DNA of 64,000 nt from NCBI RefSeq assembly GCF_008710285.1, contig NZ_VYQF01000001.1, positions 434,001 through 498,000 of the forward strand, given 5' to 3'. The notes below the pieces were generated by a model. It was not told the DNA's origin. It did no database searches and saw only the letters and a list, made by a program, of their open reading frames with translations. The position numbers and the translations under genes are program-made. Of this stretch, positions 18,582 through 31,286 are shown in pieces. Origin of the DNA: Ginsengibacter hankyongi. GTDB lineage: Bacteria; Bacteroidota; Bacteroidia; Chitinophagales; Chitinophagaceae. Position 1 is the first letter of the stretch. Each line of letters opens with the position of its first letter.

Positions 18582-18821
18582 ATGAAGGCACTAAGTTTTG
18601 TTATAAATCAGTATATAACTGATAATTGGTTTCGTGATTATAAATATCCCGATGGTAAATTTAAATACACGGAATTTGCCAAAGCTCACTACATTGAAGA
18701 AAAAATAGCTAGAAAAATTGTGAACCAAAAAGACTATGCCATGGCTCTCGAAACTCTTGAAAAAATTTGTTCTTCCAGAGATATAACGCTTGAAGAGTTT
18801 TTTAAATTGATCAAGAAGTAA
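18582..18821 (+). CDS. Small XRE-like HTH regulator
   Basis: The 79 aa product resembles a compact Cro/CI-type helix-turn-helix domain: FAKAHYIEEKIARKIVNQKD is compatible with helices 2-3, and TLEKICSSRDITLEEFFKLI matches the last helices and the usual closing pattern of XRE domains. Small regulators of this kind often control restriction-modification or toxin genes. It is the only rightward gene in the island and its 3' end faces the 3' end of the NdpA-like gene. A perfect palindrome sits just upstream. Its target is not known; the HTH call is moderately secure. Confidence 0.65.
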   Translation: MKALSFVINQYITDNWFRDYKYPDGKFKYTEFAKAHYIEEKIARKIVNQKDYAMALETLEKICSSRDITLEEFFKLIKK

Positions 18822-18869: not shown

Positions 18870-19907
18870 TTAGCTTTCATTCTGATAATAGATTTTATAG
18901 TATTTACGACCGTCCTTGTCAATTCCTTGTTCTATCATGTTATGGTTACCATGAATATAGATGTGAAAATTCTTGTCTAACTTCAAAACGCTTTTAAAAA
19001 CTCTTGTTTGCTTTTTTACCGCCTGATGAGAAATGTCAAAGTTATCTGTAAGTTCTATTTCATTTTCTTCTCTGTAGTTAGTATCAAAATTTCGAAAAGA
19101 CTTTATAATTTCCGAATCCTGGAAAACTTCTTTCTCAAATTCTTTCTTATCAAAACTTTCATGCGTTTTGAAATAGTTTACCGAACGGTTAAGCAGATCA
19201 ATTTTGTCTGCTTTGCTAACTTCAAAATCTTCTTCAAGTTGTTTAGTTACAAATTGTTTTGCAATCCCTAAAAATTCATTTGTCTGGTGAAACTCATTTG
19301 CAATGGGTCGCACTCCTAAGAATTCATCTTTCCAATATTGGGCTTCTTTACCACGATTGGTATTGTCAACAACAGAAACTAAATAACCGTCTTTTGCATT
19401 TGTGTTGAAGATTAAGCAACCTTTATCAAGTTTTCTGACAGCAATTCCTGTTTCGCTTTCTAAATCGAAACCAACTTTTGAAGTAAGCACTTTCAGAAAT
19501 GTTTCCTTATTCTCTGACTTGAAAAACCCAATTGCATCAACTGTTTTTCCATTGATAACACAACCTGCAAAATAGGCAACTTGCAATTCTCCACCTTTGA
19601 TTTTAGGATGATTGCTTTTGTCGTATAAAATCCTTGCAGAATTTTGTGTTTGCTCAACGAAAGAAGATTTGTCTTCAAAAATTGATTTTACAAACTGATA
19701 AACTGGATTGAGTTCAACCTTAGGCAAAAAGTGAAAGGAATAAAGTTCTTCAAAGTTGAAACTGTTATTCACCAACAAAGAGAAATGTTCTTCAACTTTT
19801 TCAAAATCAGTTTCAGCAGATGAAAAACGAACACCATCACCGTTATTTTTATTTCCTACGAAATGAACAATCAATTTGTCCATTTTACCAACTGAAGTAT
19901 TCTGCAT
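18870..19907 (-). CDS. NdpA-like nucleoid-associated protein
   Basis: The 345 aa product resembles the 37 kDa nucleoid-associated protein family (NdpA/YejK, PF04245): an N-terminal LIVHFVGNKNNGDGV segment, ELQVAYFAGCVINGKTVDAIGFFK, and FLGVRPIANEFHQTNEFL with a following helical region. Known members bind the nucleoid; their exact role is unsettled. Here the gene starts 3 bp after the DUF3732 ATPase gene, as the last of four tightly packed genes, so it is probably a component of the ABC-3C-type system rather than a housekeeping protein. A second in-frame Met at residue 9 is an alternative start. Confidence 0.75.
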   Translation of the reverse strand: MQNTSVGKMDKLIVHFVGNKNNGDGVRFSSAETDFEKVEEHFSLLVNNSFNFEELYSFHFLPKVELNPVYQFVKSIFEDKSSFVEQTQNSARILYDKSNHPKIKGGELQVAYFAGCVINGKTVDAIGFFKSENKETFLKVLTSKVGFDLESETGIAVRKLDKGCLIFNTNAKDGYLVSVVDNTNRGKEAQYWKDEFLGVRPIANEFHQTNEFLGIAKQFVTKQLEEDFEVSKADKIDLLNRSVNYFKTHESFDKKEFEKEVFQDSEIIKSFRNFDTNYREENEIELTDNFDISHQAVKKQTRVFKSVLKLDKNFHIYIHGNHNMIEQGIDKDGRKYYKIYYQNES

Positions 19908-19910
19908 GAA

Positions 19911-21782
19911 TTAAGCGTTGTAAATTTCTTTAGGAATCAAACCATTGCCATTAATAAATTTGGCAACAGTGTGAAAATTGGTTAAGTTATTATCAATCCA
20001 ATATTTTTCGGAAGCATGCTCTACAACAAATATTTGAAATGAATTTTTCTTTTCAGTTTTTATATACTCAATAAAATCATTGAGCAGAGAAAAAGCATCA
20101 AGTAATTTTGATTTATCGTTATTACCGCCGTTTTCATCATCCCCAGAGTAATAAGGTTTGCTTGGTTGGTCAATAAACAAAAACTGGGGGACATGTTCTT
20201 GGCTAACTTCAATCATGTGTTCATGTAAGCCTAAATAAAAACAAAGGTGCATGAACATATAGTTTGAGTCACTCCCAACAGTTTCTAATGGAAACAATTG
20301 ATTGTTGGGGTGCAATTGTAGAATCATTTCACTTTCATTAAAACTGGTTTTTGCGTTTTTATAATCAGGAAGAGAGTTTAGCTTATTGTAATTCCTCTGA
20401 ATACATTCGTTTAATGAATTCCTCATCACAAATTTCTCCTCACTAATGTCTTTAATACGATTTTCTAAATCGGACCTTTCTTCACTCAATTTATTTAGTT
20501 TGCTTGAATCAATGCTCACCATAACACGATTTTTAAATAGCTGCTCTCTTGCATATTTTACTTCACCGACAACCATGAATTTGGCACCTTCTGATTGGAA
20601 GTTTTTATTTATCAGATTCAGTTCAGTAAGTCTTGTGTCTATGTCTTTTAATTCTTCTTTAAACTCTGTTTCATCACCAGAAACCTTAAGAGGTTCAGCC
20701 AAAGTTTTTGAAAGATTGCTTTGAATTTCCTTTAAAGAGGTTTCAAGTGATTCCATGAAAAGTTTTGTTTCGTAGGAATCAAGAAGTTGGTCTGATAAAT
20801 TTTTATTCAAAAACTCAATAGGTTTAAGGCTGTCGGCACTCTTGTTCAAGTTTCTTCTGTAAATATCAAACTCCTTTCTATATTTTTCTATTGCAGAAAG
20901 TTGAATTCTTATTTCCTGTCTTCGTTTATTTAATCGGTCAATTTCTTCAAATATTTTTGAAGTATCTGCGGCTTTGTTAGTTACTGTTATTGCATCTTCA
21001 ACTACTGTCAAGGCATTGTCTATTGAAGAAACATCATTGGAATAATCTAAAAGGCGATTTTCTTTGAGCTTATTTACTAAACCGAATATTCCTCTTTGGA
21101 AATTAGATTCAGTATCAGCGTTTTTAGTATTTAGCTTTTGTATGTTCTTAATTTGTCCATCAATATATTTAATCCGTTCTTTTGCTTTGATATTGCTCAA
21201 ATCATTAACGCCAATAACCATATCAAATATGTGATTCAGATCTTTGTCAAAATCTTTTATATCATAAAACTTTGTGTCAAAGTATGTTTTCGATGCTGTA
21301 ATAATATCTGATGTTAAAGAATTAAACAACAAGAAATGCCGATAAGTAAGGTCTATTTTTGATTTCCCAACTTCCTTTCCGTATGGAAATTTCAAATCAT
21401 CTGTTACTCCGAACTCAATGTCAAGAATCTGTTTCAAATCTGAAATGCTTCTATTTTCATTAGGAATAGCTGGTAGCTTACCTTCACTAAAGAAAACTTC
21501 CGACGTAACTAAACTCTTAACTGGAGACTTTCTTGCAATTGAAAATTCCTTATCGTTAATTGAAAAACGAATTCCAAACCAAGATACTTTTTCTACAATG
21601 GTGTTAGCGATATTCATTTTACCTGAAAGAAGGCAATAATCAATGATGCTCCAAAAACTTGTTTTACCAACTGTCGCATCGCCAGTAACTACATTTACCT
21701 TGTTAGGTAAAAACTCATAGCTTTTAGGTTCTGCATCTCCTTTTTTGAACCAAAGTTTTACTTCGTGTAAAACAAATTTCAT
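19911..21782 (-). CDS. DUF3732-type ABC/SMC-like ATPase
   Basis: The 623 aa protein has a Walker A at 34-41 (GDATVGKT) right after KVNVVTG, long coiled-coil segments from about 190 to 470 and a C-terminal Walker B with FLFIDQPS (Asp538), in which Gln replaces the usual Glu, as is typical of DUF3732. These are cytoplasmic Rad50/SMC-like ATPases and form the ATPase part of ABC three-component conflict systems. The gene overlaps the upstream middle-component gene by 4 bp. It probably senses or threads DNA or nucleoprotein and controls the nuclease-like partner; that role is inference from the family. Confidence 0.85.
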   Translation of the reverse strand: MKFVLHEVKLWFKKGDAEPKSYEFLPNKVNVVTGDATVGKTSFWSIIDYCLLSGKMNIANTIVEKVSWFGIRFSINDKEFSIARKSPVKSLVTSEVFFSEGKLPAIPNENRSISDLKQILDIEFGVTDDLKFPYGKEVGKSKIDLTYRHFLLFNSLTSDIITASKTYFDTKFYDIKDFDKDLNHIFDMVIGVNDLSNIKAKERIKYIDGQIKNIQKLNTKNADTESNFQRGIFGLVNKLKENRLLDYSNDVSSIDNALTVVEDAITVTNKAADTSKIFEEIDRLNKRRQEIRIQLSAIEKYRKEFDIYRRNLNKSADSLKPIEFLNKNLSDQLLDSYETKLFMESLETSLKEIQSNLSKTLAEPLKVSGDETEFKEELKDIDTRLTELNLINKNFQSEGAKFMVVGEVKYAREQLFKNRVMVSIDSSKLNKLSEERSDLENRIKDISEEKFVMRNSLNECIQRNYNKLNSLPDYKNAKTSFNESEMILQLHPNNQLFPLETVGSDSNYMFMHLCFYLGLHEHMIEVSQEHVPQFLFIDQPSKPYYSGDDENGGNNDKSKLLDAFSLLNDFIEYIKTEKKNSFQIFVVEHASEKYWIDNNLTNFHTVAKFINGNGLIPKEIYNA

Positions 21783-22231
21783 AACTGTATATTTAATAGT
21801 TGATAAAGTTGAGTTGTATTGTGTTTCTCCATCATAATTAGGAAAGCTGACAAAATTTTTTCTATTTCGTTGAATCGATTTCCCATTGCTATTTTGTCAA
21901 GTTGAATGGCCTGCTTTAAAGAAATAGTTTTTGCTATCTCAATCTGATTACTTTTGCTCAACATCATCAGTGCATTGATTGTTATAGGCATCAGTGCCAA
22001 GAACCTTTTATTAAATGTCGTAAATAAATGGGGCCTGTTGTTTATAAAACTTTCCAAAGTCAAATCTTCTGACTTTACTGATTGCAAATAATTCACTGTT
22101 CTATCATCCAATAGAAAGGGTAGAAGTAAACATGAACGGGCAATGTCAATTGACTTGACTTCGTGTAATACTTGAATCATTACACAACTTGCAATTGCTT
22201 CGTTATTGTATGTGTAATAGATTTCTTTCAT
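21779..22231 (-). CDS. ABC-3C system middle component
   Basis: The 150 aa, largely helical protein (EIYYTYNNEAIASCVMIQVLHE, FTTFNKRFLALMPITINALMML) lies between the nuclease-like and ATPase genes and overlaps each by 4 bp. Size, position and all-helical character match the small middle component that links the ATPase to the effector in ABC three-component systems. No catalytic motif is visible. Synteny gives most of the support; sequence alone would leave it hypothetical. Confidence 0.7.
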   Translation of the reverse strand: MKEIYYTYNNEAIASCVMIQVLHEVKSIDIARSCLLLPFLLDDRTVNYLQSVKSEDLTLESFINNRPHLFTTFNKRFLALMPITINALMMLSKSNQIEIAKTISLKQAIQLDKIAMGNRFNEIEKILSAFLIMMEKHNTTQLYQLLNIQL

Positions 22232-23448
22232 GCTGTTTTATATTTATTCTCCCAGTCAAAGTGCCAACCTATTTTGGGTTCATTGGACAGCGAATAGTAG
22301 TAGCCATTACTAAATTTAGTTCCTAAGTTTTCGTTATCAATTGAAACGGTTTGTTTTCTCATGTGGTCTAATAAGTCAAGTGCTAATGCTTTTATTTCTG
22401 ATTCCAAATTTGTAACTGTATCACCTGTATTTATCTTGTTTTTAATACTCCGATATTTTGATTTGAATTCGTTCTCCCATTGCAAATGAGAATCTTCTTT
22501 AAACATATTCAGGTCGGTAGTCAGAATATCGTAATTATCAATCCAGTTTTGTAACCGATTAGTTGCTTCAAGCATTTGTGCCGTGAAGCTTATAATTTCT
22601 TTTGAATTTGCATCTAACTCTCCAATGTCAATTAACTGTTTAATGAAAATTTGTTCTGTTAAGTTTGTTGGTGGTGTTATTTGAATTTCCCTTTTGGGTA
22701 ATTTTTGTTTATCCCAACCTTGTTGAAAGCATTTGCCATATCTTTTACTAAAATCTGAAAGTGAAATTTCAAATTTGTTGCCTTCTTTAATCTCCAAATA
22801 TTTGTCAGCAGAAATATTTGAATAAAGAGAATTATAAATTAAATCAACTATAGTATCGTTATAATGCCTCTCCTTAAGCATCTGTTTTATTCTTCGAATA
22901 ATGTTGTCATTATTTGTTTCAATGATCAGATTGGTTAAAAAACTGGTTATTCGCTTTTTCCCAAGTGATAGGAAATTCTTGATGTATACTTTCAGTTCTT
23001 TGTCTGTTGTAGCATTCTTTAACTTCTCAATTTTTTCAATCACATCACTACTTTTTCCATCAGACTTAAATAAATCAAGTGCAGCTATGAACTCATTGTT
23101 TTTCTCACCCTTATTAGTAACTAAACAAAAGGCATGATTATCTAAAATACTTTGCTGTGCTTTTATCATGTCAGCCCAGCGACTTAAAGTTTTCCATAAA
23201 TCGGAATCTAAAGTTGTAAGATTGCTTGGATTCCCTTTTGAATCTTTGGAAACAGTGTGTTTTAGTTGTTGCAAAATTATCTTTCCGTTTGCCTTTTCAA
23301 TATGTATGTCGTCTTTGACCTCGAAGCCAACTTTATCACCCGTTTTCATCTCAAGTGCAGCAACTATGAAGCAGTAAAATTGATAATCAAATGCAATTGC
23401 TATCGGTCCTGCGCTGGTTTGTTCTTGAATTTTTTCTAAGTTGCTCAT
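22228..23448 (-). CDS. ABC-3C effector, nuclease-like N-terminus
   Basis: The 406 aa protein begins with SAGPIAIAFDYQFYCFIVAAL, then FEVKDDIHI and ILQQLKHTV. The spacing E43, D47, Q61-x-K63 fits a PD-(D/E)XK nuclease core of the Cap4/DUF4297 type, although I cannot prove the fold. The C-terminal half is helical and ends in a GWHFDWENKY segment, like the C-terminal domain of ABC-3C proteins that contacts the other components. It is the first gene of the four-gene leftward operon. The likely role is cleavage of invading or host DNA on activation by the ATPase. The three-gene core may equal a named defence system such as Menshen; I am not certain of that match. Confidence 0.7.
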   Translation of the reverse strand: MSNLEKIQEQTSAGPIAIAFDYQFYCFIVAALEMKTGDKVGFEVKDDIHIEKANGKIILQQLKHTVSKDSKGNPSNLTTLDSDLWKTLSRWADMIKAQQSILDNHAFCLVTNKGEKNNEFIAALDLFKSDGKSSDVIEKIEKLKNATTDKELKVYIKNFLSLGKKRITSFLTNLIIETNNDNIIRRIKQMLKERHYNDTIVDLIYNSLYSNISADKYLEIKEGNKFEISLSDFSKRYGKCFQQGWDKQKLPKREIQITPPTNLTEQIFIKQLIDIGELDANSKEIISFTAQMLEATNRLQNWIDNYDILTTDLNMFKEDSHLQWENEFKSKYRSIKNKINTGDTVTNLESEIKALALDLLDHMRKQTVSIDNENLGTKFSNGYYYSLSNEPKIGWHFDWENKYKTA

Positions 23449-23742
23449 GATGTTATTGTTGATACAACTATTTATAACTTTCTAAAAATGATACCTCTGC
23501 TATACTTAGTGTGCTCATAACCGTTAGTTCCGCTATCCTTAACTAAGGATGTATGAACATTAAATCTATAACAAATATTTCAATTTTTATAACTCAAATC
23601 TTCTTAGCCAGGCTCGTATATACTAAACTGTTATATTCGAAATATTCTAAGTTACAAAACTCAGGATAGCAGTACTTTTATAATCTGGATATACTAGCAC
23701 AACGTGGGGAATTTGAAGATCGTTTCATTATCTTGGCTTCAG
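23449..23742. promoter_or_regulatory. Upstream region of ABC-3C operon
   Basis: The 294 bp between the restriction operon and the ABC-3C operon should contain the latter's promoter. It includes a diverged copy (23497-23545) of the CTTAGTGTGCTCATAACCG repeat that flanks the two-TM gene at 10-11.5 kb, and an ACTCAGGATAGCAGT piece also seen near 166. Confidence 0.45.
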
Positions 23743-25248
23743 TCATCTTCTTTGGCTGGCTGATTTTTGTCGTCTTGCATCAATAATTATTACTTCTGGA
23801 ATTCTTTCATGTTTATCGATTGAAGCCCTATTAATTTTATGAAGCCGCCTTATTGTATTGTTAGTTTTTGTAGTTTGTAAAACTAAGTAAATACTTTTTT
23901 CCGCACTCTCTGCCTTATTGTACGTTGGTAGCTGTTTAGTATAACCCTTAATCAAGTTTGTGTTTGAAGAATACTTAATCTCAACGGTTACTACGGCTTT
24001 ATAACCTTTAGTAATTTTAAAATCCAATGCTCCGCTACCAGCGTTTGGTTCTCTACTTAAATTTAAATCGTTTGCGAGACAGTATTGATCAGCAATTCCA
24101 TAAAACAGTTTTTGAGCGAATCGTTCATTTCTCAACTTTCCTGAATTGTCGTAAAGAAATTCAAACCAACCATTGCTTTCAATAAGCTTTGCATATCTCT
24201 CGCAAATTGTTTTTGTTACTAATAATATGTTTTCGCTGTTTACAGGCTTTAAATTTAGCGATGCAAAATTCAGAGGAAAATCATTAACGGCTTTTTCAGA
24301 AAGTTCAGCCCAAATTACTTGCCCACTCGGATCATTGACAAAATCGTAAGGTGTTCTGGGCTTCTGGCTGTATTGGTTTATTAAATCTTTTAAAGCTTCC
24401 GGGTTTGTAAGCAAAGTTTGTTTTAATTTAGCTTTTGCGACCTTTGACGAAGTTGCAAACTTCCAAGTTTTACCTATTTCCTTATTTACCTTGTTTCTTA
24501 AATCACTATTTTCTTGGCAAACTCTATCAATATCATCCCAACAAAAAGCAATTGGTAAATCTTGAAGTAATTCCTTCGGAGTAAAAACTATTGGTTCTCT
24601 TGTCTTGGGGTTAAAAGGTAGTTTGATTTTGGAAATTCCAAATTCATTTTGTTTAATTCCTAATTCATCACTTACCCTCTGAGTGTATTTTATCAAATCA
24701 TCCTTAATAATATGAATTGTCATATCGCTTATTCTATCTGCCCCAATTCCTTTTTCAAAAAGTCCAATAAGTTCAAAAATGATTGGATCTTTGATTCCTG
24801 CTTTAATAATTTGATGTGAAGTATCTAATAAATTGGCCGCTATTTCACGTCCAATAGCGTTGCCACTTCTATTACCAACAGAATATCCGAGGGCCACATA
24901 TTTAAACTCCTTGAATTGTAGTCGCATGTTCGCCTCTCGCCAAAATCTATCATTTCTATTTTTTGAGTTGTCAACAATATTAAGTACTTCACTAAAGTAA
25001 GTTTTGAATTTAGAATATGAGTTTTTAAACTCTTTGATTTTTACTTTTGCCAAAAGACTCGGATCGATATAAAGCTTACTATCAATATCCACAAAGGCAT
25101 TAAATACCCCCTTCTTGTCAAGAATCTTTGCTGAAACGTTTAATATAGTGCTCAATCTTTGCGGCATAGTTTTTTGTTTGTTGAACCTAATTCTTTTATC
25201 ATCTGAAATAAACTCAATCTGATCTGCCATTTTTATTACCAAATCCAT
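23743..25248 (-). CDS. PD-(D/E)XK nuclease-like protein of RM locus
   Basis: The 501 aa protein starts 12 bp after hsdS, so it belongs to the restriction operon. The N-terminal part has AFVDIDSKLYIDPSLL and IGADRISDMTIHII, segments I recall from a widespread family of uncharacterised proteins in defence loci. The C-terminus carries a likely nuclease core, D409-x13-E423-x-K425 (ALDFKI ... TVEIKYSS), preceded by a basic, Gly-rich turn. It could be an extra restriction endonuclease, a Mrr-like modified-DNA cleaver or a guard of the RM system. A second Met at residue 7 is an alternative start. The function is unproven. Confidence 0.6.
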   Translation of the reverse strand: MDLVIKMADQIEFISDDKRIRFNKQKTMPQRLSTILNVSAKILDKKGVFNAFVDIDSKLYIDPSLLAKVKIKEFKNSYSKFKTYFSEVLNIVDNSKNRNDRFWREANMRLQFKEFKYVALGYSVGNRSGNAIGREIAANLLDTSHQIIKAGIKDPIIFELIGLFEKGIGADRISDMTIHIIKDDLIKYTQRVSDELGIKQNEFGISKIKLPFNPKTREPIVFTPKELLQDLPIAFCWDDIDRVCQENSDLRNKVNKEIGKTWKFATSSKVAKAKLKQTLLTNPEALKDLINQYSQKPRTPYDFVNDPSGQVIWAELSEKAVNDFPLNFASLNLKPVNSENILLVTKTICERYAKLIESNGWFEFLYDNSGKLRNERFAQKLFYGIADQYCLANDLNLSREPNAGSGALDFKITKGYKAVVTVEIKYSSNTNLIKGYTKQLPTYNKAESAEKSIYLVLQTTKTNNTIRRLHKINRASIDKHERIPEVIIIDARRQKSASQRR

Positions 25249-25260
25249 TATGATCTTGGC

Positions 25261-26820
25261 TCATTCTTCCGCTACCATACTTACTTTTTCTTCTTTCAAC
25301 TCATACACCTTCCCCTTCTCTTCAAACGCTTCTTTCAATACACTTTGCAACAACTGATGTGCATATTCCCGGCTTTGTTGCACCTGCGCTTCTAACTGGC
25401 TTTGTTGCTTTTGCAATTGATGCACTTTGGCTATTATGCTCTTTTGTTCTGCAAGTGGAGGAAGCGGAAATACTTGCATTTCGAATTCCTGATACATCAA
25501 GCTATGCACGGTCATCCCGTACTTTACTAAATCTTTTAAAATAAATTCTTGATGGCCCTGAAGCATTAACTGAATATATCTCGCCATTTCTGGTAAATGA
25601 GGAACTAATACTTTTAAATCTTGATTGACTGTGCATTCGACATTGTTTATGCATACAGGAAGTAGCCTCTTTAATATTCCACTTCGTCCAACAACTAAAA
25701 CAGAATTTGCTGGGATTAATTTTGCAGATGAACTGTTGACACCTTCAATTGTCACTTTATCTTCTGAGTCATTTAGATAATCCGCCTTCATATCCTTCGG
25801 AGTAATCCAGGGTATATTTCCATTCCAATATTCGCTTTTATTTGTCGAAGGTGTTCCGCCCCCAGTTATAAATCCTAATTCTTTAAGTCTACACCACACC
25901 CAACCTTCCGGCAATTCAAAAGGAATTTCATCTTCTGTTATTAGTGGTAGTTCTTTTTCTTTTTTAAGCCTGCCAGCTTTTATTAATTTTTGCTTTTCAG
26001 CTTTTATGCGTTTTAGTAATTCTGATGCCGGTTCATCTTTTGTATTTTGTTTGGTTAGTTTTCCCTGTACTGCTTCCTGCAATATGGTTTGGCGGAGAAG
26101 ATTGAGATACGTTTGTTGTTGATCAAATTCAATTGAAATATTAGTAGTCGCATGACAAAGGTTTTTAAACTTTTCAAGTCTTGTAATATTAAAAATAGTT
26201 TTTTTAGAAAAGTTTCCTTTTATAAATGAATGATAATTTTCAACAATGATTTTTTGTTGTTCTAGCATAGGAAGAGGAACATCTAATGAGACATAACCTT
26301 CGCTATCCAAATTACGAAGACCAGTAGTTGTAGATTGTTTATCAACTCTCCATTTTAAAGCCTGTGGAGATTTAAGGAATAAATCCAAATAGTCGGGAAG
26401 TATCAAATTTCTGTCAGCTCTAATTCTCATTAAAAAATTAGAAGGAATAATTTTATCTATTTCATTAGAATAGAAAATCTGAGATTTACCGACTAAGTCC
26501 TGACTTCCATTTGATTTAATTACAAGGATGTCCCCATCTACTAACTGATTTTTTTCAAAATCAACTTTAGAGATATATCGAACTTCAGCTTTTCCATAAT
26601 CTACAAAACCATGCCTGATATCTTGACTCCTTAATACCTTAACCTTAATACCTCCTTCAATATAATCTTCTCCCCAAGTCCCATTTTTTCTATCAATAAG
26701 TAATTTCTCCAACTTTATTATTGGGTAATTATTTTCAAGTTCTTTAAATATTTCCGCTTTTATAAGGCAATTATATAAATCCTCTCTTTTAGCTAATATG
26801 TTTACCGCTTCTGTTATCAT
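25261..26820 (-). CDS. hsdS: Type I restriction specificity subunit
   Basis: The 519 aa protein has two target-recognition domains, each followed by a long helix. TRD1 spans about 30-190 with GDILVIKSNGSQDLVGKS and PLPMLEQQKIIVENYHSF. TRD2 spans about 305-470 with WVWCRLKELGFITGGGTPST and PLPPLAEQKSIIAKVHQL. The helices form the spacer that sets the gap in the bipartite DNA site. It starts 4 bp after hsdM. The TRD sequences are the usual variable part; the recognised site cannot be read from sequence. The N-terminal ~30 residues before TRD1 are a plausible extra helix. Confidence 0.95.
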   Translation of the reverse strand: MITEAVNILAKREDLYNCLIKAEIFKELENNYPIIKLEKLLIDRKNGTWGEDYIEGGIKVKVLRSQDIRHGFVDYGKAEVRYISKVDFEKNQLVDGDILVIKSNGSQDLVGKSQIFYSNEIDKIIPSNFLMRIRADRNLILPDYLDLFLKSPQALKWRVDKQSTTTGLRNLDSEGYVSLDVPLPMLEQQKIIVENYHSFIKGNFSKKTIFNITRLEKFKNLCHATTNISIEFDQQQTYLNLLRQTILQEAVQGKLTKQNTKDEPASELLKRIKAEKQKLIKAGRLKKEKELPLITEDEIPFELPEGWVWCRLKELGFITGGGTPSTNKSEYWNGNIPWITPKDMKADYLNDSEDKVTIEGVNSSSAKLIPANSVLVVGRSGILKRLLPVCINNVECTVNQDLKVLVPHLPEMARYIQLMLQGHQEFILKDLVKYGMTVHSLMYQEFEMQVFPLPPLAEQKSIIAKVHQLQKQQSQLEAQVQQSREYAHQLLQSVLKEAFEEKGKVYELKEEKVSMVAEE

Positions 26821-26824
26821 TAAT

Positions 26825-28264
26825 TCAAATTATTACCAATTCTTCTTTTAATTGTTTCAATAACTGATTGTTTTTTATAAATGATTTTTCCAGCAAATCA
26901 ATTAATTCACTGCTTTTATATTTTTGCTCTTCTTCCGCAGCATGTGGATTCTTAATATCAAAATTATAATCCCGCTTTTTCAATTCTTCAACACTTACTC
27001 TCCAGGCGTATTCATTTTCTTCCCGCTCCTTCCACCATTTTCGTTCAAGGTCAAACTCTTTAATATTTATCGGTTTGGTTTTATTATAGTTCTTTACACC
27101 ATCAGGATAAGGATGCTCAAAATACCAAACCTCTTTCGTGGGTCTGCCTTTTGTAAAAAACAACAAATTAGTTTTAATGCCTGTGTATGGCGCAAATACG
27201 CCATTGGGCAAACGTACAATGGTATGCAGGTTACATTTTTCCAGCAGGTTTTCTTTTATGCGGGTAGCAACCCCCTCACCAAACAAAAAGCCATCGGGTA
27301 AAACCAATCCGCAACGCCCGCCATCTTTTAATAAATGTATAACGAGCGCCATAAACAGGTTAGCAGTTTCCCTTGTACGAAACTGTGATGGAAAATTATT
27401 TTCAATACCATCTTCTTCCATACCGCCAAAAGGAGGATTGGTTACAATAACATTCACACGGTTCTTTTCTGTCCATTCAACCCAACTTCTGCTCAGTAAA
27501 TTATCATGGTCAACCGTTGGCACTTCTATACCATGCAATATCATATTGGTAGTGGCAAGCATGTGCGGCAATGGTTTTTTTTCAACGCCACGTATGCTGT
27601 TTTGCAATGTGTCTCTTTGCTCTAACGTTTTTACTTTTTGATTCTTAAGAATATGGTCAATGGTATTTACTAAAAACCCTGCCGTGCCGCACGCAGGGTC
27701 AAGTACCGTTTCACCCAATTTAGGATTTATCATTTCCACTACAAATTGGGTAACCGCTCTCGGTGTATAAAACTCACCGGCATTACCTGCACTTTGCAGG
27801 TCTTTTAAAATCTGTTCGTAAATATCATTAAAGGCGTGGCGGTCTGCCTGCGAGGTTAATAGTATATCCGTATTTATTTTATTTACAACCTGCCGCAACA
27901 GCGTACCGCTTTTCATATAGTTGTAAGAGTCTTCAAAAACATCTCTTACCATTCTTGCCGCGTCTTTGTTATTGCGAAGCGTCATGCTCTTAAGCGTAGG
28001 AAATAAAGTGTTGTTTACAAATCCCAGCAAATCATCACCGGTCATACCTTCTGCATCAGCAGCCCAGTTGCGCCAGCGCAAATCTTTTCGGATAGGAGAC
28101 TTATAATTTTCATTGGTTATTTCCCAATCGTTTTCTTTTTCATCAAAGATTTTTAAAAACAACATCCATCCCAGTTGGGAAATTCGTTGGGCATCACCAT
28201 CCACACCGGCGTCTTTACGCATGATGTCCTGGATGGATTTTATTGTCGAGGTTAAGTTGCTCAT
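26825..28264 (-). CDS. hsdM: Type I DNA adenine methyltransferase
   Basis: The 479 aa protein has the HsdM N-terminal helical domain (about 1-130, RISQLGWMLFLKIFDEKE) and an N6-adenine methylase core with the SAM motif DPACGTAGF (from D189) and the catalytic NPPFGG (from N276). With HsdS it methylates adenine in the recognition site, and with HsdR it forms the restriction complex. The downstream hsdS starts 4 bp after its stop. A 172 bp gap with short direct repeats separates it from the GxxExxY gene upstream. Confidence 0.97.
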   Translation of the reverse strand: MSNLTSTIKSIQDIMRKDAGVDGDAQRISQLGWMLFLKIFDEKENDWEITNENYKSPIRKDLRWRNWAADAEGMTGDDLLGFVNNTLFPTLKSMTLRNNKDAARMVRDVFEDSYNYMKSGTLLRQVVNKINTDILLTSQADRHAFNDIYEQILKDLQSAGNAGEFYTPRAVTQFVVEMINPKLGETVLDPACGTAGFLVNTIDHILKNQKVKTLEQRDTLQNSIRGVEKKPLPHMLATTNMILHGIEVPTVDHDNLLSRSWVEWTEKNRVNVIVTNPPFGGMEEDGIENNFPSQFRTRETANLFMALVIHLLKDGGRCGLVLPDGFLFGEGVATRIKENLLEKCNLHTIVRLPNGVFAPYTGIKTNLLFFTKGRPTKEVWYFEHPYPDGVKNYNKTKPINIKEFDLERKWWKEREENEYAWRVSVEELKKRDYNFDIKNPHAAEEEQKYKSSELIDLLEKSFIKNNQLLKQLKEELVII

Positions 28265-28362
28265 GTTACGTTATTGTCTGAACTATGATTTTTAGGATTA
28301 GAAGATGATAAGATTATTTATCAGCAAACTGTAATTTTTTAGCATGATAACAAGATTCAATT

Positions 28363-28444
28363 TCTTATCCTAAAATCTTTTCATCCTACAAATCTTAGTT
28401 CTTCTCTTATCCTGTAATCTCTTCATCTTGTAAATCTTAGTTCT
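28363..28444. repeat. 40 bp short direct repeat pair
   Basis: Two similar 40 bp copies, 28363-28402 and 28405-28444, share TCTTATCCT and ACAAATCTTAGTTCT-like ends. The second overlaps the last codons of the GxxExxY gene. Related AATCTTAATCCTATAATC pieces lie at 28838-28895. They may be remnants of insertion around that small gene. Confidence 0.65.
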
Positions 28445-28829
28445 TATTTTTATTCAATTCATGTTTAGTGTTATACACCCTTTTAAATTCCATACTCTTA
28501 CTGCCAAAATTAATCAGCAAACCTACAGGTAAATTATACGCTTCAAGATAATTCATTGCCTGTGCTAAATGCAGATCATCCAGTTTGCTTACAGCTTTTA
28601 ATTCGACCATAATTTTATCTTCTACAAAAAAATCAACTCTTCGGGTTCCTATTTCTATGCCATCATAAAAAACAATCATTTCCTGTTCTCTTGTAAAGTC
28701 CAGTCGCTGCTTTCTCATTTCGATATCTAGCGCCCTTTGATAAAACACTTCCTGGAATCCACTTCCTAAGGTCGAATGTACCTTCATTGCACAGCCAATT
28801 ATTTTATGTGTTAGCTCTTCGTGTAACAT
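28437..28829 (-). CDS. GxxExxY protein (PDDEXK_3-like)
   Basis: The 130 aa protein has the name-giving motif at G24-x2-E27-x2-Y30 (GFQEVFY) and the later VDFFVEDKIMVELKAV block with an ExK pair, which together resemble a small PD-(D/E)XK fold. Members are frequent in Bacteroidota and often sit alone between unrelated genes. Here it lies between hsdR and hsdM and is bordered by short direct repeats, so it may be an insertion into the RM operon. Its function is not established. Confidence 0.9.
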   Translation of the reverse strand: MLHEELTHKIIGCAMKVHSTLGSGFQEVFYQRALDIEMRKQRLDFTREQEMIVFYDGIEIGTRRVDFFVEDKIMVELKAVSKLDDLHLAQAMNYLEAYNLPVGLLINFGSKSMEFKRVYNTKHELNKNKN

Positions 28830-28901
28830 TGCAATTCAGTAATCTTAATCCTATAATCTTAATCCTATAATCTTTAAATCATACAAATCTTAGTTCTCAC
28901 A

Positions 28902-31286
28902 TTACGCGTACAATTCTTTCTCCAATTCCCCAATTGCTTCAACATACTTTTCCTTACTTCCAAACATTCTAATTATTTCCGGCGGTGTTCCAAAGGTGCT
29001 CAAAGGATCAATAGATAATACTTCTGAGTTTTCAATTGTTGCTATTCCTTCATCAGCATATTTATCCAATAATGCATTTAATACTTTCCTTGCCTGTTCA
29101 CCATACTTTGTAAAATAATTTCGCTTCTTTACATTGTTGGCTCTTTCCTTCCGTGTAAGTGGGGGCTGGTCGTAAGTAACATGACAGATAATGTCAAAGA
29201 GGTCAGCTTCTTTATCCACAGCGTCTGTTAATGCATCTACCATTATGCCCTGTTCCTGCAACTCCTTTATTATTGCCGCTTTCTTTTCTCCATCGTTCCA
29301 TTTGTTTAAAAAATCATTCAATGTAGCGAAGTGATTCTTAATTATTTCTTTCGTATGATCTTTAAGCGAAACTGTAATAGGTTTACCATTATTATCAAAG
29401 TACATTTCTCTTGAAACCAATACAGAAACATCAACGCCATTTACATAAACCTTAGGCTTACGTTCATGCACAAACGAAGTTCTCTCATTTTCAGGATACC
29501 TTACAGTTGGTTTTTTTAATATTACTTCTTCTCCACTCACATTATCAATTATAGGATCTGTAAAATTTTCTTCTTCCTCTTCGATTGTTGAGAGATCTGT
29601 GTCTTCGGTCGCCTCTTTTACCCGTATTGGCGGTCCATCAAAATCAGGATCAGCAAAGAGGTCTGTTACGTTTCTGAAATCAAGTATGGTAAAATACAGC
29701 TTACCGAAATCTTCACGTATGCGTGTACCTCTTCCAATAATTTGCTTAAACTCGGTCATGCTTTGGATGTTGCTGTCCAGCACAATTACTTTACAGGTTT
29801 GCGCATCCACCCCTGTTGACATGAGTTTGGAAGTAGTGGCAATTACGGGATATTTTTCTTCCGGGTTAATGAAGTTATCGAGTTCATTTTTCCCTTCTGT
29901 ATTGTCACCGGTTATCTGCATTACATATTTATAATTCTCTTTAACCAAGTCAGCATTTAATTTAGATAAAGCCATGCGCATCCGTTCTGCATGATCAATA
30001 TCTACACAAAAAACAATTGTTTTAGAGAAACGACCAGCACCCAATAAAAATTCAGTAATCTTACTGGCAACTGTATCTGTTCTTTCATCAATTATAATGT
30101 TCCTGTCAAAATCTTTTCGGTTATAAATTCTGTCCTCTATTTCATTTCCCACTTTATCAAGCTTCCCTTTCTCAGGCCGCCAGCCTTCAAGATCAACATT
30201 TAATCCTACTCTTACCACACGATAGGGCGCAAGAAAACCATCATCAATACCTTGCTTTAAAGAATAAGTATAAATAGGATCACCAAAATATTCGATGTTT
30301 GAAATTTCATTGGTTTCTTTTGGCGTCGCTGTCATGCCAATGTGAGTGGCATTTTTAAAATAAGCTAATATCTCCCGCCATGCACTATCTTCCGACGCAC
30401 TTCCGCGATGACACTCATCAATAACTACCAAATCAAAAAAGTCGGAAGAAAATTGTTTGTAAATATTGGCTTCTTCATCATTACCTGATAAGCCCTGGTA
30501 AAGCGCTAAATATATTTCGAAGCTTTTATCAATCTGCCTGTGTTTTACCCACGTCATCTTATCTCCGAAATACCTGAAATCATTATTCTTTGTTTGGGAG
30601 ATCAGTACGTTACGGTCAGCTAAATAAAGAATGCGTTTTTTAACCTTTGCTTTCCACAAACGATAAACAATCTGGAAAGCAGTATACGTTTTTCCGGTAC
30701 CTGTTGCCATTACCAGTAATATCCTGTTTTGGCCTTTTGCAATTGCTTCTATTGTTCGGTTAATTGCAATTTCCTGGTAATACCTTGGCTTGCGTCCTGA
30801 ACCATCAGAAAAATATTCCTGTGAAATAATTCTTTCCTCTTCCGGCGAGGTAATATTCTTAAAGACTTTAAACTTATTCCATAATTCACCAGGAGAAGGA
30901 AACTGTTCCAACGACATTTCTGTTTCTATCGAACTATCCGTTGCAGTTCTATCATGAAAAATAAAGCCATCGCCATTACTGCTAAATACACAGGGTATAT
31001 CTAAGATTTGTGCGTAATCAAGAGCCTGCTGGATACCTGCGTTTACTGAATGATTATTATCCTTTGCCTCGATGATAGCAACAGGATTTGAATTATAGTA
31101 TAAAATGTAATCGGCTCTTTTACGTTTACCCCTCGCAGTTAGTTTACCACGTACAAAGATTTTACCATCAGTAAAAGAAACTTCTTCTAAAATTTGCTTG
31201 TCAATATCCCACCCGGAATCTATTAAAGAAGGCGTAATGTATTTTGTGCAAATGTCTCTCTCAGATAAAGTCTTTTTATCCAGCAT
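28902..31286 (-). CDS. hsdR: Type I restriction subunit R
   Basis: The 794 aa protein has an N-terminal nuclease domain (ADYILYY ... VAIIEAKD with the ExK element around residues 62-80), an SF2 helicase motor with Walker A GTGKT (196-200), DECH (290-293) and MTATP, and a C-terminal domain ending EKYVEAIGELEKEL that resembles the EcoEI R-subunit tail. It translocates DNA and cuts unmethylated invading DNA as part of HsdR2M2S. It is the first gene of the RM unit; its promoter should lie in 31287-31597. The length fits the EcoEI-like subgroup. Confidence 0.97.
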   Translation of the reverse strand: MLDKKTLSERDICTKYITPSLIDSGWDIDKQILEEVSFTDGKIFVRGKLTARGKRKRADYILYYNSNPVAIIEAKDNNHSVNAGIQQALDYAQILDIPCVFSSNGDGFIFHDRTATDSSIETEMSLEQFPSPGELWNKFKVFKNITSPEEERIISQEYFSDGSGRKPRYYQEIAINRTIEAIAKGQNRILLVMATGTGKTYTAFQIVYRLWKAKVKKRILYLADRNVLISQTKNNDFRYFGDKMTWVKHRQIDKSFEIYLALYQGLSGNDEEANIYKQFSSDFFDLVVIDECHRGSASEDSAWREILAYFKNATHIGMTATPKETNEISNIEYFGDPIYTYSLKQGIDDGFLAPYRVVRVGLNVDLEGWRPEKGKLDKVGNEIEDRIYNRKDFDRNIIIDERTDTVASKITEFLLGAGRFSKTIVFCVDIDHAERMRMALSKLNADLVKENYKYVMQITGDNTEGKNELDNFINPEEKYPVIATTSKLMSTGVDAQTCKVIVLDSNIQSMTEFKQIIGRGTRIREDFGKLYFTILDFRNVTDLFADPDFDGPPIRVKEATEDTDLSTIEEEEENFTDPIIDNVSGEEVILKKPTVRYPENERTSFVHERKPKVYVNGVDVSVLVSREMYFDNNGKPITVSLKDHTKEIIKNHFATLNDFLNKWNDGEKKAAIIKELQEQGIMVDALTDAVDKEADLFDIICHVTYDQPPLTRKERANNVKKRNYFTKYGEQARKVLNALLDKYADEGIATIENSEVLSIDPLSTFGTPPEIIRMFGSKEKYVEAIGELEKELYA

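Follow-up and report, generated by a model that had tools for sequence, protein, structure and literature searches.

The locus described here raises the question of why a gene for an NdpA-like protein should be locked into an operon whose other genes resemble an ABC three-component (ABC-3C) conflict system. The operon lies in a stretch of 64,000 nucleotides from Ginsengibacter hankyongi (contig NZ_VYQF01000001.1, positions 434,001 to 498,000 of the forward strand), referred to below as the window, and consists of four minus-strand open reading frames (ORFs) running from 23448 to 18870, which, read from the window sequence, encode proteins of 406, 150, 623 and 345 amino acids (aa). The original prediction, made from the sequence alone, described four leftward genes with two 4 bp overlaps and a 3 bp gap, and all reading frames were found in these places: lmuA and lmuC overlap by 4 bp (22228-22231), as do lmuC and lmuB (21779-21782), and 3 bp (19908-19910) separate lmuB from the fourth gene, here called LmuN, whose product belongs to the NA37/NdpA/YejK family (NA37 below). 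The operon looks intact. We hold with moderate confidence that the best explanation of the whole is a four-gene anti-phage subtype of the Lamassu system, with NA37 as an inherited component acting at the sensing step.

The first three genes are assigned to a Lamassu system (ABC-3C, type II, Cap4 nuclease) because of the Pfam, PADLOC and solved-chain matches of their predicted products. LmuA matched the PADLOC LmuA profile (5.2e-45) and, over the cut-off, PF20283 (C-terminal domain 7, CTD7; 4.9e-9); its match to PF14130 (Cap4_nuclease; 1.1e-5) scored 26.1 bits, just under the cut-off of 26.2. The nuclease residues E43, D46, D47, Q61 and K63 were invariant in all eight aligned LmuA sequences, and the LmuA profile matched the solved chains 9nxx_A and 9hqu_C, both ABC-three component C-terminal domain proteins, with E of about 1e-23. 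LmuC matched PF20131 (middle component MC3; 5.3e-8, over the cut-off) and the PADLOC LmuC profile (6.6e-5). In the case of LmuB, matches were obtained to PF12532 (DUF3732; 2.9e-38), to the PADLOC LmuB profile (8.5e-72), and, for its profile, to the solved DUF3732 chains 9hqu_A, 9ny5_D and 9uxl_A (E 7e-71 to 4e-70). Its Walker A residues G34..G39-K40 and the pair D538-Q539 (in the motif IDQPS) were invariant in four rows of an alignment designated A3. The families named in the original prediction were thus recovered by Pfam, its reading of the first three genes as an ABC-3C conflict system is in line with the PADLOC matches, and the first gene proved nuclease-like, so that the lack of a nuclease fold against which it had warned did not occur: the domain is present by sequence. 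Menshen (NsnABC), a multi-gene system with an ATPase, had been considered as a possible identity of the core; every PADLOC hit of the three proteins was an LmuA, LmuB or LmuC profile, and no Menshen name was found among the PADLOC matches at E up to 0.1, in a library whose content for Menshen was not checked.

The replacement of the Walker-B glutamate by glutamine is described as a general feature of Lamassu LmuB (PMC10586767), and this glutamine is present in the window LmuB as Q539. No CxxC motif or zinc hook CPxC was found in this protein, in which cysteines occur only at positions 50, 460 and 514; the zinc hook is reported for many, not all, Lamassu LmuB proteins and is not required (PMC10586767). 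The A-C-B gene order, the Cap4 nuclease joined to a C-terminal domain, the small middle component and the DUF3732 ATPase resembling structural maintenance of chromosomes (SMC) proteins, with its Walker-B glutamine, are those of Lamassu type II/DdmABC/ABC-3C with Cap4, and sequence matches extended to 9hqu, 9ny5, 9uxl and 9nxx. Type II has been described with three genes and type I with two (PMC10586767, PMC12409362). Unlike the described three-gene type II, the window system has NA37 after lmuB and belongs to a distinct LmuB clade. The features by which Lamassu is recognised (the LmuB ATPase, an LmuA effector with enzymatic N-terminus and C-terminal domain, a small LmuC and the Walker-B glutamine) were all found, except the three-gene composition; the coupled fourth gene makes this a variant and not an ordinary member. 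Lamassu systems are also characterised by activity against phages or plasmids through abortive infection, and the four-gene operon very likely has anti-phage activity.

The fourth protein matched PF04245 over nearly its full length (4.2e-34; 118.8 bits compared to a cut-off of 24.6; residues 13-330 on profile positions 1-321 of 325), in agreement with its predicted NdpA-like nature, and none of the PADLOC profiles matched it with an E of 0.1 or less. This full-length family match is what it shares with YejK/NdpA of Escherichia coli and pneumococcal StaR. Those are chromosomal or mobile-element genes, whereas the window NA37 directly follows lmuB and groups with other Lamassu copies.

The closest relatives of the window NA37 (loci L002-L005, 74-83% identical) lack adjoining lmu genes and suggested a resident gene, and the survey was therefore started from LmuB. 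DUF3732 was detected in 3 of 149 relative genomes and, phylum-wide, in 15 of 395; LmuB profiles had matches in 7 of 395 genomes at class level and in 1 of 46, 6 of 198, 3 of 298 and 8 of 354 genomes of further samples, each count including the genome at the centre of the search (that of the window, G834 or G486) and the samples overlapping. Matches to LmuB were also obtained in 4 IMG/VR contig loci, 68 plasmid records and 1 phage record; in the single plasmid record examined of the 68 (H1), no NA37 was found beside LmuB. The order LmuA-LmuC-LmuB-NA37 was observed in six places, namely the window, genomes G834, G975, G486 and G1359, and one phage-like contig, so that the fear expressed in the original prediction, of NdpA genes beside DUF3732 genes in this genome only, was not borne out. 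The order is complete in G834 (lmuB-NA37 gap of 3 bp) and G486 (overlap of 4 bp). G975 has a gap of 12 bp and a partial lmuA near the contig end, while in G1359 the lmuB and NA37 frames overlap, NA37 is shortened at the C-terminus and lmuA is partial or broken. In the phage-like contig (IMGVR_UViG_3300030294_000939) the two genes overlap by 4 bp, and genes for a phage lysozyme and a holin-like protein lie upstream. None of the five other systems was first located via NA37; that of G1359 was located through its LmuB and its NA37 was noticed only afterwards. G975 and G1359 came from the A3 query; the LmuB sequences underlying this query were NA37-bearing ones, and all of its matches were examined.

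A tree of 32 LmuB sequences united the six NA37-bearing systems in one clade (bootstrap 99; Shimodaira-Hasegawa-like approximate likelihood ratio test, SH-aLRT, 99), with NA37 in 6 of 6 members inside and 0 of 26 outside. This tree comprised frames above 450 aa only; 67 of the 68 plasmid records, the phage record and G914 (whose lmuB is split by a stop, and in whose flanks no NA37 was found) were left out. Long or odd rows were removed in three further trees (L065, L086 and a set of four odd rows, respectively), and the clade was unchanged. Searches next to the remaining 26 LmuB genes, also with YejK-type models, detected no NA37, in loci with at least 1.48 kb of sequence downstream of lmuB in 25 of 26 cases and 196 bp in L061; the initial NA37 profile had missed L022 and L023, both seen by Pfam, and all loci were re-searched with the YejK-type models. 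A difference in LmuB loop length between NA37-bearing and NA37-less systems was considered and rejected as inconsistent, since the loops of L087 and L088 are as short and 14 of the 32 rows had no recognisable motif. One NA37-less Lamassu system (G1420) carries two transposase-like frames, so labelled from our own sequence reading, between lmuA and lmuC.

The original prediction allowed that the fourth gene could make this a new subtype, and the six systems in one LmuB clade agree with this: they very probably represent a separate subtype of Lamassu, inherited as such and equipped with a fourth gene dedicated to it. What is new here is this Lamassu clade with its inherited NA37, the Lamassu core itself being already known. 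No literature pairing Lamassu with YejK, NdpA, NA37 or PF04245 was found in a search that did not cover key ABC-3C, structure and YejK papers, where an earlier mention is possible; Lamassu and nucleoid-associated proteins are named together in an article on H-NS and in a special-issue article. Since LmuB identity within the clade falls to about 32%, the link between LmuB and NA37 is old, and because a single Lamassu branch retained the gene over a long evolutionary time, NA37 is probably a working part of that branch.

NA37 could instead be a passenger, i.e., a common chromosomal gene where Lamassu landed, or one that shares its mobility. The family is indeed frequent, being found in 64 of 149 relative genomes (the window genome included), and the solitary copies mentioned above are similar to that of the window. 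It is a single-copy gene in 61 of those 64 genomes, and the odds of an NA37 gene starting by chance within ~30 bp after a given lmuB are, by our own arithmetic, about one in a million per genome. The link between NA37 and lmuB is more than chance, because the gene is mostly single-copy, placement within ~30 bp is improbable and all six members of the LmuB clade share the arrangement. The junctions of +3, +3, +12, -4 and -4 bp and the overlapping frame of G1359, in systems whose LmuB proteins are as little as 32% alike, also argue against a passenger. In the window genome, as in each of the other four genomes with an NA37-bearing Lamassu, no NA37 other than the operon copy was found. The ratio of nonsynonymous to synonymous substitution rates (dN/dS) of NA37 was 0.076-0.09 in three pairs with the window copy for which dS was unsaturated, and NA37 is under purifying selection; it is also the best kept of the four proteins between the window and G834 (68%, compared with 50-56% for the other three). 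A passenger is therefore very improbable, and a mere resident gene, as the solitary nearest relatives had suggested, was rejected on account of the LmuB clade.

One of the solitary copies bears on how the gene is kept. In L002, the intact NA37 gene is directly preceded by the remains of lmuB: ~42 residues corresponding to the C-terminus of LmuB are still recognisable (48-51% identity, E 1.5e-7) and stop 9 bp short of the NA37 start; no such relic was seen upstream of NA37 in L003-L005. Because of this decayed lmuB tail directly upstream, at least one solitary NA37 is the remnant of a four-gene operon. Persistence of NA37 where lmuB has decayed is what would be expected, with the toxic part lost first, if NA37 were an immunity or antitoxin-like protein that protects the nucleoid against LmuA, or keeps this nuclease inactive, and takes no part in sensing. 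This is the main rival explanation. Against it, 26 of the 32 sampled LmuB genes lack such an adjoining gene, and we regard it as unlikely.

The sensing role of NA37 that we favour builds on what is known of other Lamassu systems, which lead one to expect that LmuB with LmuC recognises aberrant DNA (ends, stem-loops) and that this releases LmuA, which would cut DNA and abort the infection. NA37, attached to the nucleoid, to topoisomerases or to both, would contribute to sensing by setting or reporting DNA topology for the LmuB sensor, with the outcome that host DNA does not trigger LmuB and replicating phage DNA does. Negative supercoiling favours stem-loop extrusion. Since supercoiling has this effect and NA37 proteins act on topoisomerases, NA37 could decide what LmuB sees; this assignment of NA37 to a sensing or topology step is plausible but tentative. 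The two roles suggested in the original prediction, self/non-self DNA recognition and NA37 as the target that the ATPase senses, are likewise hypothetical. In described Lamassu systems, the LmuB and LmuC sensor responds to stem-loops or ends in DNA, and activation frees LmuA, which then cuts DNA as a tetramer (PMC10586767, PMC12904381, PMC12409362). Among NA37 proteins, StaR is located on the nucleoid and activates topoisomerase I (PMC10053502), and the interaction partners of YejK include gyrase and topoisomerase IV (PMC9927451, PMC10561277).

Several observations weigh against a dedicated, inherited sensing component. Most of the sampled Lamassu LmuB genes (26 of 32) have no adjoining NA37, and the gene may serve a separate function, as it outlives the decayed lmuB in L002. 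The topology step draws on distant NA37 relatives, and StaR and YejK share 19.4% identity and reportedly have different enzymes as targets (PMC10053502). The six Lamassu NA37 proteins are acidic (isoelectric point 5.05-6.05), which makes plain DNA binding not obvious. The AlphaFold2 model of the fourth protein (mean predicted local distance difference test score, pLDDT, 87.6) revealed no convincing structural relative in the PDB (best E 0.49); compared with viral models, it gave one nameless match (7.4e-7) and one to an uncharacterised phiCD119 protein (4.1e-3). The NA37 trees were also divided. These contain only loci found by the first NA37 profile, and therefore neither L022, L023 nor NA37 matches without a locus. 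A 49-row tree, made after manual removal of 39 of the 88 rows (near-copies and a small number of long branches), placed the six NA37 proteins from Lamassu in one clade with solitary L002-L005 (100/100), apart from the 39 others. When G1359 was left out (87 rows), the tree separated the G486 and phage-like-contig copies from the window, G834 and G975 copies, and a free search of all 88 rows likewise failed to bring the ten together. Constraining the ten to one group in the 88-row tree improved the score by 19.9 log units, and the constrained tree was not rejected (approximately unbiased test, p-AU 0.80). A single origin of the Lamassu NA37 copies is likely, not proven.

Next to a protective role, the second rival is that the operon copy serves as bait, through which the system notices phage interference with nucleoid proteins or topoisomerases. 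Phages do carry such genes: those of Bacteroidota often have an NA37 of their own, NdpA/YejK has been reported in temperate Pseudomonas phages (PMC10305613), and we found NA37 encoded in 32 viral-contig loci, of which 31 had no lmu gene found alongside and often had small genes flanking. On the trees, however, the copies with which the window NA37 groups are chromosomal or belong to Lamassu, while phage copies fall elsewhere, and a bait is quite improbable. The IMG/VR contigs L105-L135 contain a recurrent NA37, often flanked by small genes, in neighbourhoods that we read as early or replication regions. NA37 of L068, used as the sole query, found no match in viral contigs. Four plasmid records contain NA37, and no lmu genes were found in the two plasmid neighbourhoods viewed.

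Outside Lamassu, NA37 was found in two further modules (Table 1). The first of these resembles the window system in that NA37 is directly beside a gene with a nuclease-like domain; it differs in that no lmu gene was found there, the partner being an unrelated protein of ~900 aa or two separate genes. In L006, L007 and L008, NA37 overlaps the gene for the ~900 aa protein by 4 bp, and in L008, whose protein is 89% identical to that of L006, the first 96 residues matched the PADLOC profile 'Effector, Endonuclease' (3.8e-13). The middle and C-terminal parts of this protein are homologous to the two separate NA37-adjoining genes of L010 (Flavobacterium) and L021 (Seinonella, Bacillota); the other loci of the module are from Bacteroidota. 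An endonuclease effector at the N-terminus of the overlapping partner (tested in L008) would suit an NA37 that restrains or shields against a nuclease. In the other module, found in viral contigs L089 and L091, the partner does not appear to be a nuclease: the ~210 aa protein gave a weak match to a two-helix membrane (2TM) effector in L089 (9.7e-4) and no match in L091, where a PtuA-like ATPase follows NA37. This suggests a nuclease-independent role and speaks against the immunity reading. In a further locus, L020, two NA37-like genes flank one with a RelA/SpoT domain, and a Schlafen AlbA_2 gene follows, at spacings of -1 to 3 bp.

These few loci are suggestive of NA37 as a part common to several systems. 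It is conceivable, if somewhat doubtful, that NA37 is a modular sensor of nucleoid or topology state adopted by unrelated defence systems (the Lamassu clade, the ~900 aa or split module and the L089/L091 module); if true, it would supply the still unexplained self/non-self decision of Lamassu. A Lamassu clade with its own nucleoid protein makes a role of NA37 in protection, toxicity or triggering directly testable, and the poorly known NA37 family gains a defined partner.

Table 1. Positions of the operon, its neighbours and related loci (window numbering unless a locus is given)
Feature	Position	Strand	Description
lmuA	22228..23448	-	Cap4-type double-stranded DNA endonuclease + ABC-3C C-terminal domain 7, putative effector; 406 aa
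lmuC	21779..22231	-	middle component MC3; 150 aa
lmuB	19911..21782	-	SMC/Rad50-like ATPase, DUF3732, putative sensor; 623 aa
LmuN (fourth gene)	18870..19907	-	NA37/NdpA/YejK-family protein; 345 aa
Presumed leader/promoter region	23449..23742	-	294 bp from the last gene of the type I restriction-modification cluster to lmuA; by position only
Cro/C1-type helix-turn-helix protein	18582..18821	+	79 aa; PF13443 2.9e-6; convergent with the operon
Type I restriction-modification cluster	23743-31286	-	HsdR, HsdM, HsdS
LmuB C-terminal relic	L002:9866-9991		upstream of solitary NA37
Second NA37-linked module	L006:3895-7628, L007:7293-11020, L008:7290-11017, L010:7923-11017, L021:9980-13144		5 of the 20 loci of one NA37 search
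Third NA37-linked module	L089:1362-4016, L091:4319-8492		viral contigs; ~340 aa + ~210 aa + NA37
Two NA37-like genes with RelA/SpoT-domain and Schlafen AlbA_2 genes	L020:7968-12571
NA37-less Lamassu with transposase-like frames	L152:7095-11925		G1420

In the immediate surroundings of the operon, a Bacteroidota promoter before lmuA was rejected as a candidate: the Bacteroidota -33/-7 consensus had no match in the presumed leader, and the two matches in the window, compared with 3.6 expected, both lie elsewhere. The convergent helix-turn-helix gene, whose end is 48 bp from that of the fourth gene, is a possible regulator of the operon. Type I restriction-modification genes lie directly upstream of lmuA and, counted with the Lamassu operon, make up a defence island of ~12.4 kb; the same cluster encodes, after HsdR, HsdM and HsdS, a 501 aa protein resembling the PADLOC candidate PDC-M36A.

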